Of a stretch of DNA of 36,952 bases, positions 24,508 to 36,952 are shown piece after piece (the first letter of the stretch is position 1; every line of letters begins with the position of its first letter). Under the pieces are notes generated by a model. The model did not search any database. It was not told the origin of the DNA and was given only the letters and a program-made list of their open reading frames with translations. The stretch is from Nitrospirota bacterium (GTDB lineage: Bacteria; Nitrospirota; Leptospirillia; Leptospirillales; Leptospirillaceae), in NCBI GenBank assembly GCA_021828525.1, contig JAJZGM010000002.1, forward strand, positions 1 to 36,952. Direction: 5' to 3'. Made by a program: the position numbers and the translations under genes.

Positions 24508-24582
24508 TGGGGCGTCGACAAGCGGCAAGTCACGAGATTTTGGATCTCGCATTCCCAGGTTCGAATCCTGGCGCCCCAGCCA
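24508..24582 (+). tRNA. tRNA-Gln (anticodon TTG)
   Basis: Acceptor TGGGGCG/CGCCCCA, anticodon arm CGAGA-TTTTGGA-TCTCG, T arm CCAGG-TTCGAAT-CCTGG, encoded CCA. Confidence 0.95.
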
Positions 24583-28841: not shown

Positions 28842-29072
28842 ATGGCAGGTCAGGCTCGTTCTTTCCAGAGAAAAAAGGTGTGCCGTTTTTGCACAGAAAA
28901 CCTCCTCATCGATTTCAAGGATCAGGCCACGCTTCATTCCTACCTGACCGAACGTGGAAAAATCCTTCCGCGAAGACTGACAGGGACCTGTTCTCACCAT
29001 CAAAGGGCGGTCTCAAAGGCGATCAAGCAGGCCAGGAATGTTGCATTTCTTGCCTTTGCCGAGGAAAGCTGA
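28842..29072 (+). CDS. rpsR: 30S ribosomal protein S18
   Basis: RKKVCRFCTENLLIDFKDQATLHSYLTERGKILPRRLTGTCSHHQRAVSKAIKQARNVAFLAF. Confidence 0.97.
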   Translation: MAGQARSFQRKKVCRFCTENLLIDFKDQATLHSYLTERGKILPRRLTGTCSHHQRAVSKAIKQARNVAFLAFAEES

Positions 29073-30225
29073 ACTGAACACTCCGTTTCCCGTCGCACCA
29101 TTCCTTTCGACGGTCTCTTTTTCGACGGCTCTTTATCTCTCCCTGCTTGCCCTGCCGCGAGTCGGAATACTTGTGGCCATGTTTTCCGGTGTTCCCCTTG
29201 TGCTGGCCCAGCTCCAATTTCCCTCCCAGCTTTTGGGAACGGGGGCCATGGTGACATCGGGGGGTCTCATTTTCCTTCTGGGATCACTTCTCCATAATCC
29301 GATTCCCGGTCTCCAGGTTCTGATCTATGTCGGATGGTGCGGCCTGCCGGCTCTTCTTACGGCAGAGTTCCTGCGAAGACAGGTCCGGGTTCTCCCGATG
29401 GTTTTTTCCACCTCATTTCAGATTCTTTTTTTTCTGGGTGGGGTCGCCTTTTTTCTCTATATGAAAACCAATGGCCAGATATGGACAGGAATTGCCCAGA
29501 GCATCCATGGGGCGGTCGATGTCGTCATGAACACGGCCATCAAAAATTCCCATTCGACCCTGAGTCCCGCCGACCAGGCCCGTCTTCTTTCCCTCGAACC
29601 ACTCATTTACAGGACCTTCCTTGATCTTCTTCCCGGGCTTTTTGCCAGTCTGGCCCTCCTGACAGCCATCACCTTGTGGGCAACGAGTGTCGGGCTTCTT
29701 GAGAACCGGCAGCTATCTCCCGGACAGCCGGGGATTGATCGATGGGTTCTCCCCGATCATCTTATCTTTGCCCTGATTGCCTCCATGGCTCTTCTTCTCG
29801 TTCCGTCCTTCGAAATGCGTGTTCTGGGAACAAATCTCCTGATGGTTTTCGGAGTCCTCTATGTGGGACAAGGGACAGGAGTTTTGTTAAGCTATGTAAG
29901 AAAAAGAAAGCTGGGAGGATGGTTCTGGCTGGTTTCGGGAGTCTTCCTCCTCATTCAGCCGATGTTTCTCATGATTTTAGGACTGGTCGGCGTTATCGAC
30001 ATATGGGCGGATTTCCGGGAGCTCAGGGGAAAGCCGACGGGAGGAAACGGATCAGGTGAAAAAGGTCGATATGTGGAAAAGAAAATGGATGACCTGTCTG
30101 ACGGGGATGGGAGCCATCGCGACTCTTTCCGCACTTTCAGCCTGTGTCAGTACATCAGGGGGTCCCGTCTCCTGGGGGCATTCCGGGGGAGCGCGTCCAT
30201 ACGGGGAAAAGTTCGGCCAGCCTGA
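29038..30225 (+). CDS. DUF2232/YybS-like polytopic membrane protein
   Basis: Multiple TM segments; C-terminal core ends '..LILGLVGVIDIWADFRELRG'; sits immediately after rpsR. Last ~57 codons overlap rlpA out of frame. Confidence 0.75.
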   Translation: MLHFLPLPRKAELNTPFPVAPFLSTVSFSTALYLSLLALPRVGILVAMFSGVPLVLAQLQFPSQLLGTGAMVTSGGLIFLLGSLLHNPIPGLQVLIYVGWCGLPALLTAEFLRRQVRVLPMVFSTSFQILFFLGGVAFFLYMKTNGQIWTGIAQSIHGAVDVVMNTAIKNSHSTLSPADQARLLSLEPLIYRTFLDLLPGLFASLALLTAITLWATSVGLLENRQLSPGQPGIDRWVLPDHLIFALIASMALLLVPSFEMRVLGTNLLMVFGVLYVGQGTGVLLSYVRKRKLGGWFWLVSGVFLLIQPMFLMILGLVGVIDIWADFRELRGKPTGGNGSGEKGRYVEKKMDDLSDGDGSHRDSFRTFSLCQYIRGSRLLGAFRGSASIRGKVRPA

Positions 30226-30799
30226 TTTTTCCGTCATGGAAGGCCGGGTCGGAATGACGGAGGTCGGACGGGCCTCCTGGTATGGGCCGACCTTTTATGG
30301 TAAGCGCACCGCCAGTGGAAGCATCTTCAGGAAGCATGCCTTTACGGCCGCTCACCGGACTCTTCCTCTGGGAACCATGGTCAGGGTGACAAATCTTGCC
30401 AATGGACGCTCCGTTGATGTTCTGGTCAATGATCGGGGCCCCTTTGTCTCGGGCCGGATCATCGATCTCTCCTGGGAAGCCGCCAACAGGCTGGAAATTA
30501 TTGGCCCCGGAACAGGACTCGTCAAGCTGACCGTTCTTTCTGTCCCGGGCGGGGGTGGGCATCGCGGGACGGGGTATTACGCTGTGCAGGTGGCCTCCTT
30601 TACAAGTTACGACAAGGCCTTGCGATACAAGGAAAAACTTGGTCGTTACTCCCATATCAGGATCCAGCGGGCACATTTCGGCAGCCAGCCGGTCTTTCGT
30701 GTCCAGCTCGGGCAGTTCTCCAATCCCGGGAAGGCTCGTTCCTTTGCCCGGGAGGTGAAGGCGGAGCTCGGGAATGCCTTTATTGTTCAATCGGAATAA
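30056..30799 (+). CDS. rlpA: Septal ring lytic transglycosylase RlpA family lipoprotein with SPOR domain
   Basis: Lipobox LSAC; GRASWYGPTFYGKRTASG..AAHRTLPLGTMVRVTNLANGRSVDVLVNDRGPFVSGRIIDLS; SPOR-like YYAVQVASFTSYDKA..FRVQLGQF. ATG 30071 alternative start. Confidence 0.92.
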   Translation: MKKVDMWKRKWMTCLTGMGAIATLSALSACVSTSGGPVSWGHSGGARPYGEKFGQPDFSVMEGRVGMTEVGRASWYGPTFYGKRTASGSIFRKHAFTAAHRTLPLGTMVRVTNLANGRSVDVLVNDRGPFVSGRIIDLSWEAANRLEIIGPGTGLVKLTVLSVPGGGGHRGTGYYAVQVASFTSYDKALRYKEKLGRYSHIRIQRAHFGSQPVFRVQLGQFSNPGKARSFAREVKAELGNAFIVQSE

Positions 30800-31219: not shown

Positions 31220-31675
31220 CTATTGGGAGTTTTTGAGAATCAGCTTGCGGGTTTTCTGATCGGCGGTATTCAAAATCTTGATGGCGTCCTTGTCGAGATG
31301 GGCCAGTTTTTCGGAGGCCTGCTCAAGGTCTTGCGAAAGGGCTTCGATGTCGGAAGGCGAAATCCGGCTTCCCGGGGTCCCCTTAAGGTATTTTCTCGCC
31401 GAATCCACGGCAATCCGGGCCTCGCCGAAATTTTGGTCGAGAGTATCGTGAATTGCTGCCTCGATACTGGTTTCTGCCATGTGAAGATCAAGTGAACGAT
31501 GTAGACGCTGGTAGGACTGGCTGAAGTTCTTTCCCTGCAAGTTGATCTGGGATTTGAGGGCGTCCATCTGGGACTTGAGGTCATTGACCTTGGCGCTGTC
31601 CTGTTTCATTCCCATGGAATAGGCCATGGCAATGGCCAGCACGATGACCATGGCTATCAGCAAATTTCTTATCAT
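31220..31675 (-). CDS. Uncharacterised single-TM, helical protein
   Basis: MIRNLLIAMVIVLAIAMAYSMGMKQDSAKVNDLKSQMDALKSQI..: N-terminal TM then heptad-like helices. Confidence 0.65.
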   Translation of the reverse strand: MIRNLLIAMVIVLAIAMAYSMGMKQDSAKVNDLKSQMDALKSQINLQGKNFSQSYQRLHRSLDLHMAETSIEAAIHDTLDQNFGEARIAVDSARKYLKGTPGSRISPSDIEALSQDLEQASEKLAHLDKDAIKILNTADQKTRKLILKNSQ

Positions 31676-33210: not shown

Positions 33211-33294
33211 TGGTGCGAGAGGGGGGACTTGAACCCCCACGGGGTTACCCGCCAGATCCTAAGTCTGGTGCGTCTGCCATTTCGCCACTCTCGC
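33211..33294 (-). tRNA. tRNA-Leu (anticodon TAG)
   Basis: Minus strand GCGAGAG...CTCTCGC acceptor, anticodon arm CCAGA-CTTAGGA-TCTGG, variable arm, T arm GGGGG-TTCAAGT-CCCCC, encoded CCA. Confidence 0.95.
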
Positions 33295-33308: not shown

Positions 33309-33337
33309 ATTCTAGGAGGTTTCGTTTCCTTTGACAA
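33309..33337 (-). promoter_or_regulatory. Sigma70-type promoter of tRNA-Leu
   Basis: Minus strand TTGTCA (33337-33332), 17-nt spacer, TAGAAT (33314-33309), 14 nt upstream of the mature tRNA 5' end. Confidence 0.75.
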
Positions 33338-34185
33338 TTGCAGGAAGGAAAGGGTTCCGCCTTTTTCTTCTCCTATTCTCCCTGGGAAACAGCCTCTTTG
33401 CGGTCCTCCTCTACGCCCTGACACGCCCCTCCCTCTCCACCCCCCTTTTTGAATTTCCCCTTCTGGCAAGCCTTCATGCCCTGGTTCTCGGAACCCTCCT
33501 TCCGCTTCTTCTTGATGGGCTCTATCGTGATTCCCCCCTTTTTCGGGTGGCCTCCCTTTTTGTTTGTACAGGCGAGCTGGTTTTGGTGTCAGGGTTCCTG
33601 ACCCTCCCACGGTCAGAACTCCCTTATGATGGCGGGATGATGGTGACAACAGGACTCCTGTTGGCGGCATTTCTCCTGAAACCCGGAAGCTGGCGGTTCC
33701 TCTACTGGATGGCCCTGGGAGGATCGGCCGGACTGGGCATCCTTCTTGGAGAGGTCCTTTCCCGGCCGACCATCGATCCCATTCCCTTTTCGATGATTGC
33801 GGCCCACGGGCTTTTGGGAGCGGGACTGGGCCTCTACCCCCTTTTCTGGGTCAGGAAGGATCAAGAGATTCGAGCGAAGCTTCCGGTGATCGCTCTCGTC
33901 GGGGCTGTCCTGATTTTCCTCACCCTAGTCCTGAAAGAGACCCTGATCAGAGGATCGATGGGGGCTCTTTTCGTCGGGATGGCGATTCTTGCCGCCTCCG
34001 GTCTCGGGAGAGAAGGCCGTCTTTTTGGCCTTCTTTGCGTCGGAGGGGCCGTGATCCTCTGGTTTTCAGGAAGGTTTCTTCCCGGAGAAGGAATGTCCCT
34101 TCTGGGTCTCCTTCTTCTGGGCGGCTGCCTTGTCGGACTAGTCAGAAATCGCCAGGGTCTTCAGGGGGAGCCTGCGGCGGACTGA
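33331..34185 (+). CDS. Uncharacterised polytopic membrane protein
   Basis: 284 aa, about 8 hydrophobic segments; TTG start with AGGAGGT (33314-33320) upstream. Confidence 0.7.
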   Translation: MTIAGRKGFRLFLLLFSLGNSLFAVLLYALTRPSLSTPLFEFPLLASLHALVLGTLLPLLLDGLYRDSPLFRVASLFVCTGELVLVSGFLTLPRSELPYDGGMMVTTGLLLAAFLLKPGSWRFLYWMALGGSAGLGILLGEVLSRPTIDPIPFSMIAAHGLLGAGLGLYPLFWVRKDQEIRAKLPVIALVGAVLIFLTLVLKETLIRGSMGALFVGMAILAASGLGREGRLFGLLCVGGAVILWFSGRFLPGEGMSLLGLLLLGGCLVGLVRNRQGLQGEPAAD

Positions 34186-36952
34186 GATCCGGCGGTGGCC
34201 GGAGCCCCTTCGGAAAGCTCGAGATGGTTGTCCATGATCCCGATTCTGAAAAGGCTTTCTGGAGTCATTGAGGATGCCTGGATCTCCAGGTTTTTCAAAA
34301 CGGGAAGGATCATGGCCTGAATTTTCCGGTTTAGCTCGGATACGGTGATCGTTGCCGGATCAACCTGGTGGGTGAAGAAGGCGGGAATTTCGGGGTCCAC
34401 ATCGAGAATTCCCCTGATCGGATGCTTTTCGAGGAATCGGGATAGGGTCTCGTAAAGGGTGCGGCGAGAGATGTCTTCGATGTCTGTCTCGCTGTAGGCC
34501 GGGAAGGGAACAATCAGGTCGAGGGAGCTCAGTGTTTCCCGGCTGAAGACAGGAAGAAAGGCCAGACGCCGGTTCTTCTCGGAAAGTTTTTCAAGAATCA
34601 TCTCGACCCTGTTTCCGTGTCGGGCTGACTCCATTTCATCCCCGGAAAAGAGTGAAGTGCCGAGGATCAGTGTGCTCCGGGGAACAGAAAGGGGTTTCCC
34701 GCCGGCGTTGATGACTCCTTCGTTCAGGAAGAAAGGGAGGAAATCCCAGGCTGAGGGATGGGCCTGCTCGATGTTGTCAAGGTAGAAAACGGCCTCCGGC
34801 CTTTCTTCGAGGAGGGTCCGGATTCCTTCCGGAACCGGACTCGACTTGGACGAACCGAGCGGCCTCTGGAGCACCATGCTCGCAAACAGACGGTCTGCAT
34901 AGAGCCCCATATCCCGCACCACAAGCCGGCCCTTCCCGGGGTCGAGATGATGTGCGATGGCCTGGGCCGCTTCCAGCTTTCCCGTTCCTTTCGGCCCGGC
35001 GAACAGGAAGGCGCCCCGTATGCCGGATCCCCCCTTCTTGATGTTGTAGGATCCGGCGTCGAGAATGGACCGGATTTCCTCCTGAAGATCCCTTCGCCCC
35101 GGAAATCCCGTCAGGAACTCCGGTTCCGGCGGAGCCATCTGCAAGACCCCTTTTTCCTCGACTTCCTGCTCCTCATGGAGCTCTTCCTGGGGGGGCGCCT
35201 TAGGGGCATCGAGTTCGGAAAAATCGACCTTGTCGGCAGGAGTTCCTTCAAGAATCCGTCCAAGAGCGAACTCCTCAAGTTCGGAAAAGAGGGAGCGCCC
35301 CAGTTCGGTCAGGTCAAGAAGGGAGGAAAAACGCCTGGCGATGAAGGGGTCGATCCTGTTGATATCCTCGGCACCGGCAATAAGCCAGACATTCTTGTCC
35401 TCGTTGGTCTGGGCGAGTTCCATGACCTTCTGGTTGTAAATTTCGCCATGATAGCCGTAATTGGAAAGCTGGACCTTCGGAAAGAGTTCTTCGAGCGGGT
35501 CCACAAAAACCGTCGAAGGACGGTTTTTCCGGCTCTTCAGAAGTAGCGTCCGGAATTCGGTCCCGTCGAGCTTTTTGTCATCGGGAATGGTCATGAAAGG
35601 GAAGCCTACCTGCGCTGAAAGCTTCTCGGCGATCATTCGGCGCACCTGGCGGGTACGCCCGATAATCAGGATCGACTCGTGGGACTTCTTTTGCCGGTTT
35701 GAAAAGAGTTCTTTGGCCCGGTTGACGAGAAGTGGCCCCATCGCCTGGTCTGTGAGCCTCGACCGGACGATCTCCATGGGGCCGGCCGTCGGGTCCTTCC
35801 AGTTCTGGGCCTTTCGACGGATCGAGACATCGATATCGAGCTGCCGGAGGGAACGCCTCAGCTTTCTCGCATAGTCGCTGCTGTGGAGGACCACATCCCG
35901 GATGTCCTCCGGGGCGAATCCCTCCATGAGCACGGCTAGCTTGCCCATGTCGAACCCTGTGATCATGTCGGGGGTCAGGAGAGGGAGATTTCCGGGAAGA
36001 ATTTCGTTTTTCCTGGCCTCCTCCTGGAGAAACCGGGCCAGAAGGGCTTTCCTCATTTCCACCTCCGGCAAGGGAACAGGAACGATCCAGTGGATGATGG
36101 GGGGCGAGGTGAAGGGTTTCGGAAGATCGTCAGCCTTCTCGACAGAGGCGATCAGAAGATGGCTCCGATTTTTTGCGAGACGGGAGAGGAAAATCTGGAT
36201 ATTGTGCAGTCCCTGGGGATTGGTTTGGGAGGCGGTGGAAATGGTCCGACCGTAATTTTCGATATAAATGACCAGGGGGGCAAAGGGCTTGATCTTGAAA
36301 AGGAACCCTTTCCAATAATTGTCCAGCGCCGATCCGTCGACAGACAGGAGAGGCTCCAGCGAGAAATTGTAGAATGGACGTTTGTACTCTCCGGCAAGAG
36401 CCCGAGCAAAAATTGTCCGTCCGATCTGGGATGGTCCCGTCAGAAGGATCCCGTTTTGGACATTTCCGACCGATTTCTGGGCCGTTGCGACTTGGTAGAG
36501 AATCTGTGAAAGTTCGGCCTTGATCTCGGGATTTCCTGGGATCTGACTGAAATCCTCCCCCGGAACAAGAAGTCTGGTTTTTGAAACGATGACTCCCTCA
36601 TCTGCCAGTCCCATTTGGAAAAGGGCGACCAGCGAAAGGACCATGGCCCCGACCAGCCATCCTGCTCCCGTCCCCATGCTGATGATCGAGCTGATGGTGG
36701 CCGAGGGTTTCAGGATGGCTCCGGATATCAGGAAAAAACCTCCATAGATGATCGAGGAGCTCCAGAAATAAATCGCCTTGGGAGCCATGCGGACCGGATT
36801 GGGCTTGAAAACGATCTCTCCGTCGACGTTTTCGGAATGGACCTGGGACGGAATGAGGAGAAAGCCGAGGGCGGAGAGAAGGGTCACTCCCCCGACCGCC
36901 CAGAGGGAGAGGGCCAGGGGGGGGTCGGAGGAGCGGAACACGATTCCGGCTC
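34161..36952 (-). CDS. Membrane-anchored multi-AAA+ module protein (FtsH-like first module, ClpB-D2-like last module); 5' end may lie outside window
   Basis: Frame remains open to the window edge (ORF called from GTG at 36941). About 3 TM segments, then GILLTGPSQIGRTIFARALAGEYKRPF, IIGRTRQVRRMIAEKL...STVFVDPLEELFP, and FLFAGPKGTGKLEAAQAIAHHL...AVFYLDNIEQAHPSAWDFLPFFLNEGVI. Confidence 0.8.
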   Translation of the reverse strand, partial: AGIVFRSSDPPLALSLWAVGGVTLLSALGFLLIPSQVHSENVDGEIVFKPNPVRMAPKAIYFWSSSIIYGGFFLISGAILKPSATISSIISMGTGAGWLVGAMVLSLVALFQMGLADEGVIVSKTRLLVPGEDFSQIPGNPEIKAELSQILYQVATAQKSVGNVQNGILLTGPSQIGRTIFARALAGEYKRPFYNFSLEPLLSVDGSALDNYWKGFLFKIKPFAPLVIYIENYGRTISTASQTNPQGLHNIQIFLSRLAKNRSHLLIASVEKADDLPKPFTSPPIIHWIVPVPLPEVEMRKALLARFLQEEARKNEILPGNLPLLTPDMITGFDMGKLAVLMEGFAPEDIRDVVLHSSDYARKLRRSLRQLDIDVSIRRKAQNWKDPTAGPMEIVRSRLTDQAMGPLLVNRAKELFSNRQKKSHESILIIGRTRQVRRMIAEKLSAQVGFPFMTIPDDKKLDGTEFRTLLLKSRKNRPSTVFVDPLEELFPKVQLSNYGYHGEIYNQKVMELAQTNEDKNVWLIAGAEDINRIDPFIARRFSSLLDLTELGRSLFSELEEFALGRILEGTPADKVDFSELDAPKAPPQEELHEEQEVEEKGVLQMAPPEPEFLTGFPGRRDLQEEIRSILDAGSYNIKKGGSGIRGAFLFAGPKGTGKLEAAQAIAHHLDPGKGRLVVRDMGLYADRLFASMVLQRPLGSSKSSPVPEGIRTLLEERPEAVFYLDNIEQAHPSAWDFLPFFLNEGVINAGGKPLSVPRSTLILGTSLFSGDEMESARHGNRVEMILEKLSEKNRRLAFLPVFSRETLSSLDLIVPFPAYSETDIEDISRRTLYETLSRFLEKHPIRGILDVDPEIPAFFTHQVDPATITVSELNRKIQAMILPVLKNLEIQASSMTPESLFRIGIMDNHLELSEGAPATAGSQSAAGSP

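Follow-up and report, generated by a model that had tools for sequence, protein, structure and literature searches.

The window analysed here, a stretch of 36,952 nucleotides, is contig C244 of a 1.53-Mb draft genome that is 71% complete. Its last part is occupied by a long gene on the minus strand, designated AAA3 in this analysis. The frame of at least 926 codons claimed in the initial annotation was confirmed, as positions 34161-36950 are open throughout. The contig stops at 36952, which leaves about 97 N-terminal residues of AAA3 outside the window. This missing N-terminus, including the start ATG, was located on contig C71 of the same genome (G000:C71:4368-4820), which overlaps the window edge by 175 bp with 99.4% identity. 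The two contigs are separated by a break in the assembly, for which strain variation may be the reason. Intact orthologues in related genomes have a length of 1022-1030 aa, and the anatomy of the full-length protein was taken from these complete orthologues and not from the joined contigs. They consist of six transmembrane segments, two classic AAA modules of the p97/FtsH type and a ClpB-D2-like module. Residue numbers refer to the orthologue L005. The features of AAA3 within the window are as follows, from the N-terminal to the C-terminal side:

34161..36950, minus strand: AAA3 coding frame, open, 5' end truncated at the contig edge, leaving 929 of about 1024 codons
36849..36917, minus strand: TM4, from hydropathy and alignment to L005, with helices in a low-confidence model
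36714..36776, minus strand: TM5, from hydropathy and alignment to L005
36609..36677, minus strand: TM6, from hydropathy and alignment to L005
35904..36560, minus strand: module 1, classic AAA domain (p97/FtsH-like) with catalytic residues lost, from Pfam AAA and a PDB profile match to p97
36414..36437, minus strand: Walker A position of module 1, GPSQIGRT, lysine replaced
36252..36272, minus strand: Walker B position of module 1, VIYIENY, no DE
35748..35903, minus strand: linker between modules 1 and 2, RQLDIDVSIRRKAQNWKDPTxGPM, conserved, 46% of core columns invariant
35205..35747, minus strand: module 2, AAA fold without P-loop and most constrained module, from profile, model, Foldseek and dN/dS
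35409..35522, minus strand: near-invariant block RPxxxFVDPxExLFP[KR]VQLSxxxYHGExYNQKVxELxQ inside module 2, DP in place of the Walker B DE
35124..35204, minus strand: variable acidic linker between modules 2 and 3, zero invariant columns
34197..35123, minus strand: module 3, ClpB/ClpA D2-like domain with catalytic residues lost, from Pfam AAA_2 and a ClpB D2 match
34974..34997, minus strand: Walker A of module 3, GPKGTGKL, lysine kept in 18 of 19 sequences, following Thr/Ser lost in all
34773..34790, minus strand: Walker B of module 3, VFYLDN, catalytic Glu replaced by Asn in all members (LDN)
34524..34526, minus strand: arginine-finger position of module 3, Ser here and Arg in ClpB

AAA3 lies directly 3' of uvrC in all five genera that carry it. 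At the junctions that could be read, the two genes overlap by up to 4 nt or are separated by up to 2 nt; on contig C71, the start ATG overlaps the uvrC stop as TGATG. The order usp-phoH-ybeY-ftsY-uvrC-AAA3 is preserved where the contig permits. Outside the window's genus, an extra frame of about 430-570 codons is located between phoH and ybeY, and different genes follow 3' of AAA3. Such a housekeeping cluster alone is no indication of function; ftsY encodes the SRP receptor, and its closeness could at best suggest a link to membrane-protein biogenesis. Neither ftsH nor clpB was genetically linked to AAA3 in the neighbourhoods examined.

Other features of the window were recorded alongside. A convergent gene on the plus strand (33331-34185) encodes a multi-TM protein of 284 aa without a Pfam match; its 3' end overlaps that of AAA3 by 25 bp, and it is found beside AAA3 in the window's genus alone. 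A tRNA-Leu gene with a TAG anticodon (33211-33294, minus strand) is situated in the gap ahead of this membrane-protein gene, and a tRNA-Gln gene is present at 24508-24582. The minus-strand frame at 31220-31675 encodes a small protein of no clear family, which is 55-93% conserved in the genus; it has a single hydrophobic segment at the N-terminus and an extended region that looks helical. An RlpA-like protein with DPBB and SPOR domains is encoded on the plus strand (30056-30799), and its start overlaps the end of a DUF2232 membrane protein (29038-30225).

Hydropathy and alignment place six hydrophobic segments within residues 1-216 of AAA3, at about 2-23, 31-57, 79-98, 104-131, 146-173 and 188-208. 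The roughly three N-terminal hydrophobic segments described previously correspond to TM4-TM6 of these six; TM1-TM3 are encoded outside the window on contig C71. The loop at residues 55-79 contains seven K/R and zero D/E, so that, following the positive-inside rule, this loop, both termini and the AAA modules would be cytoplasmic. An even number of transmembrane segments with cytoplasmic AAA modules is consistent with this charge pattern. A profile search of the transmembrane domain against the PDB returned no meaningful match. Full-length AlphaFold2 modelling with 11 close orthologues gave a mean pLDDT of 44 and a pTM of 0.27, and this model was used for secondary structure alone.

The AAA homology of the three downstream modules is well supported by profile comparisons, with PDB profile matches of about 1e-24 for modules 1 and 3. 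Module 1 (residues about 225-443) matches Pfam AAA at 1.8e-15, p97 at about 1e-26 and the FtsH of its own genome with 42.8 bits over 175 positions, which agrees with the FtsH-like layout noticed earlier. Module 3 (residues about 704-1012) matches Pfam AAA_2 at 1.3e-9, and its previous assignment to the ClpA/ClpB D2 class is borne out by a match to ClpB D2 in the PDB at 3e-24 and by 85.5 bits against the ClpB D2 of its own genome, aligned along the module length including D[EN]IE.AHP. Module 2 (residues about 496-676) matches archaeal VCP-like/p97/Cdc48 proteins at 6e-11, and aligns to module 1 in hhalign with a P-value of 9e-5 and a probability of 60%. An AlphaFold2 model of this module built from 12 sequences has a pLDDT of 72.9 and a pTM of 0.70. 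Its best Foldseek hit in the PDB has an E-value of 5e-7 and a probability of 1.00 at a TMq of about 0.5, and the matching folds are the AAA domains of p97, FtsH (7zbh) and Ycf2-FtsHi (8xku/8xqw). The refuting case named in the initial annotation, a single real AAA+ fold, does not apply, as module 2 is AAA by both profile and structure.

Across the 19 sequences compared, the Walker A pattern [AG]xxxxGK[ST] is absent from all modules, as are a Walker B of four hydrophobic residues followed by DE and the HExxH metalloprotease motif. The last of these supports the earlier statement that the protein is not a simple FtsH. The description of three P-loop-like modules holds for their AAA homology but not for the P-loop itself, which is nowhere canonical. 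In module 1, R, Q or C takes the place of the Walker A lysine across the family, and Walker B occurs as IENY, IDNY, LENY, ITDY, IPDY or IVDY, the last three in other genera; profile alignment to the genome's own FtsH shows no counterpart of the FVGVG pore loop. Module 2 has no P-loop left (the window has GRTRQVRR there), DP replaces the Walker B DE in all members, and the module is shorter at the pore-loop region in profile alignments to the genome's own FtsH and ClpB D2. In module 3, profile alignment to the genome's own ClpB D2 places variable residues at the arginine finger (NR.DEI) and no counterpart at the GYVGY pore loop with its tyrosine, and the sensor-1 Asn is lost. Overall, all or nearly all members have lost Walker A and B and sensor-1, together with the majority of arginine-finger and pore-loop residues. 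As a control, the FtsH and ClpB encoded at other loci of this genome were compared, and both have canonical Walker A and B motifs. Judged from these motifs, all three modules look catalytically dead. The initial annotation had left this loss unremarked.

These losses bear directly on the main idea of the initial annotation, in which AAA3 would be a divergent but active AAA+ unfoldase or remodelling motor. The AAA fold of all three modules and the GxxxxGK retained by module 3 in 18 of 19 sequences fit such a motor. However, the Walker B glutamate is absent from every module of every member, and module 3 lacks the Mg-coordinating Thr/Ser, sensor 1, the arginine finger and the pore-loop tyrosine altogether. 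An active motor is accordingly regarded as highly improbable, and an ATP-driven unfoldase role appears very unlikely. From the functions suggested previously, unfoldase and membrane remodelling are not supported, given the loss of catalytic and pore residues, and a scaffold alone fits.

Module 3 could still serve as a nucleotide-gated sensor that binds ATP or ADP without hydrolysis and thereby switches the shape of a membrane assembly. Substitutions of the Walker B glutamate are used experimentally to obtain ATP-binding, non-hydrolysing states, and the P-loop lysine is the part of the site that was kept while the rest decayed. Against this, the lysine is Arg in L029, the sole exception among the 19 sequences, and the residue that follows it is L, R, M, I or K, with T/S in none of the 19, so that Mg-ATP binding would be weakened. 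Such a sensor is therefore considered improbable, yet the conserved lysine means that module 3 may bind nucleotide, which counts against a purely scaffolding protein.

Sequence comparison indicates that AAA3 is under strong, long-term purifying selection. Pairwise Nei-Gojobori dN/dS values for nine pairs from three genera are 0.065-0.107 for the whole gene. For module 2 they are 0.012-0.075, below those of modules 1 and 3 in each pair, and the acidic linker is much less constrained than the modules. Within module 2, 22 of the 35 positions in the stretch 571-605 are invariant, and this stretch corresponds in the FtsH alignment to the Walker B strand plus the HDEREQTLNQLLVEMDG segment after it. 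The linker that precedes the module has the near-invariant family form RQLDIDVSIRRKxQxxxDPTxxPM. Since module 2 has no nucleotide site, its constraint suggests a role in binding, and the main binding surface would probably lie in the near-invariant FVDP...YHGExYNQKV block.

AAA3 was found in all 21 genomes sampled of its family, apparently Leptospirillaceae (its own genome and 20 relatives), with one copy each. Within the genus (13 genomes), identity is 67-94%, whereas the 7 genomes of four further genera have 36-39%. In G012, one of the 13, the gene is divided between contigs C44 and C69, and the C-terminal piece has a frame of only 197 codons, which ends either at a contig edge or at a genuine break. 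Searching with a profile of the transmembrane region recovered the gene in all 21 genomes and returned one weak match in 275 other genomes of the phylum, which contains an internal stop (E-value 1.2e-4) and was taken as spurious, and the generic AAA matches in other genomes are FtsH- and Clp-sized frames. A contig search with single-sequence patterns, a weak test beyond the phylum, recovered close relatives alone at 66-96% identity. In plasmid records, generic AAA matches alone were obtained, none of which spans 80% of the query.

The loss of all catalytic motifs might also be expected of a decaying pseudogene or of a fusion created by misassembly. A pseudogene or chimera was rejected because length and architecture are equal and internal stops are absent across five genera, synteny is conserved, and dN/dS is about 0.1 or lower. 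Misassembly was rejected because the gene is present in independent assemblies, a single-contig genome among them. The probability of either is practically negligible.

No Pfam or NCBIfam entry describes the whole of AAA3, in line with the earlier impression that no standard family could be named. The NCBIfam FtsH models scored 34.9-40.7 bits against cut-offs of 600-1008, ClpB 44.5 bits against 1232, and TIGR01243 (Cdc48/p97) 26.8 bits against 802. By significant profile and structure matches to the fold, AAA3 belongs to the AAA+ superfamily, and with Walker A and B lost in all members under continued selection it has the sequence characteristics of an AAA+ pseudo-ATPase. FtsH has one or two transmembrane segments, one active AAA domain and an HExxH protease (PMC9020784). 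AAA3 shares with it the membrane anchor and a classic AAA module placed after the membrane helices, but has six transmembrane segments, three dead AAA modules and no protease, and lacks the Walker A GxxxxGKT, Walker B DE and SRH arginines of an active FtsH. Modules 1 and 2 resemble p97/Cdc48 as tandem classic AAA domains with p97-type proteins as best PDB matches. Unlike AAA3, p97 has active Walker motifs in both domains, an N domain and no membrane anchor; in AAA3, the transmembrane region takes the place of the N domain, Walker motifs are missing from modules 1 and 2, and a Clp-type third module is added. Module 3 resembles the D2 domain of ClpB, ClpA and ClpC and can be aligned to that of ClpB along its length, but has lost the catalytic Glu, arginine finger, sensor 1 and pore-loop Tyr; the two active domains (D1 and D2) of Clp/Hsp100 proteins are reduced to this one D2-like module, without Clp N domain, middle domain or D1. 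A literature search joining Leptospirillum, AAA ATPase and FtsH found no paper on AAA3, and an AAA3-like protein is not described in the parts consulted of a paper on acidophile proteostasis (PMC10490939). AAA3 is a combination of known parts, an AAA pseudo-ATPase and a membrane anchor, for which no match was found.

Catalytically reduced AAA proteins include the clamp-loader delta' subunit and some dynein modules. Chloroplast FtsHi proteins retain an intact AAA domain and have lost the protease alone (PMC8197885). Like AAA3, the FtsHi/Ycf2 complex is membrane-bound, FtsH-derived and catalytically reduced, and its structures 8xku/8xqw match the fold of module 2. FtsHi are the nearest analogue in spirit; unlike them, AAA3 has lost the ATPase itself in all modules. 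LAP1 combines a membrane anchor with an AAA+ fold that lacks nucleotide motifs, and it activates torsin, a true AAA+ protein, by an arginine finger (PMC4358337). AAA3 resembles LAP1/LULL1 in its anchor and missing motifs, although it has three modules in place of one and no conserved finger at the aligned positions.

The main rival to a scaffold is a regulatory pseudo-subunit that inserts into or caps a true AAA+ ring (FtsH at the membrane, ClpB or ClpC) and tunes the enzyme, as LAP1 does with torsin or the FtsHi/Ycf2 subunits with FtsH12. The alignment of module 1 with membrane-anchored or classic AAA domains, including the genome's own FtsH, the match of module 2 to the FtsH and Ycf2-FtsHi structures, the presence of genuine FtsH and ClpB in the same genome and the LAP1 precedent itself are in favour of it. 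However, LAP1 donates an arginine finger, and the corresponding positions are unconserved in modules 1 and 3 and in module 2 of the window's genus. A chain of three modules is not easily accommodated in a single-tier FtsH ring, and ftsH and clpB are not genetically linked to AAA3. Overall, this reading is judged rather unlikely. Arginine-finger donation in the manner of LAP1 was rejected, as it is unsupported at the aligned positions in the window's genus. In other genera, module 2 has one Arg or Lys at the aligned finger position, and four sequences have one arginine (FGR/FSR) at the position of R359 in p97. In these four, residual trans-activation may occur, which would also count against a scaffold.

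The anchoring segments, AAA folds, catalytic loss and constraint described above are best combined in the reading of AAA3 as a polytopic inner-membrane pseudo-AAA+ protein, probably a scaffold or partner subunit, whose three modules lack the residues for ATP hydrolysis, with the customary pore-loop grip missing from two or more of them. The modules would retain an AAA surface, and AAA3 could form a static, probably oligomeric platform on the cytoplasmic side of the membrane. This platform may organise or dock an active machine, for which FtsH or a Clp ATPase would be natural candidates, or alternatively present membrane clients to it. Partner binding would occur through module 2, and module 3 may optionally hold a nucleotide in a structural or sensing role.

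ATP-driven work is what defines AAA+ proteins, and pseudo-AAA subunits are usually one dead part beside live ones. AAA3 unites dead copies of two AAA branches and six membrane helices in one polypeptide that is kept family-wide. Its emptiest module is also the most conserved, and the protein is a clear example from which to learn what use the AAA fold has without ATP. Tentatively, AAA3 might form a three-tiered membrane AAA+ assembly without ATP hydrolysis, a permanent ring-like platform of former motors. In these extreme acidophiles, which matter for bioleaching and acid mine drainage if the family is indeed Leptospirillaceae, it might be required for the biogenesis or quality control of membrane proteins.
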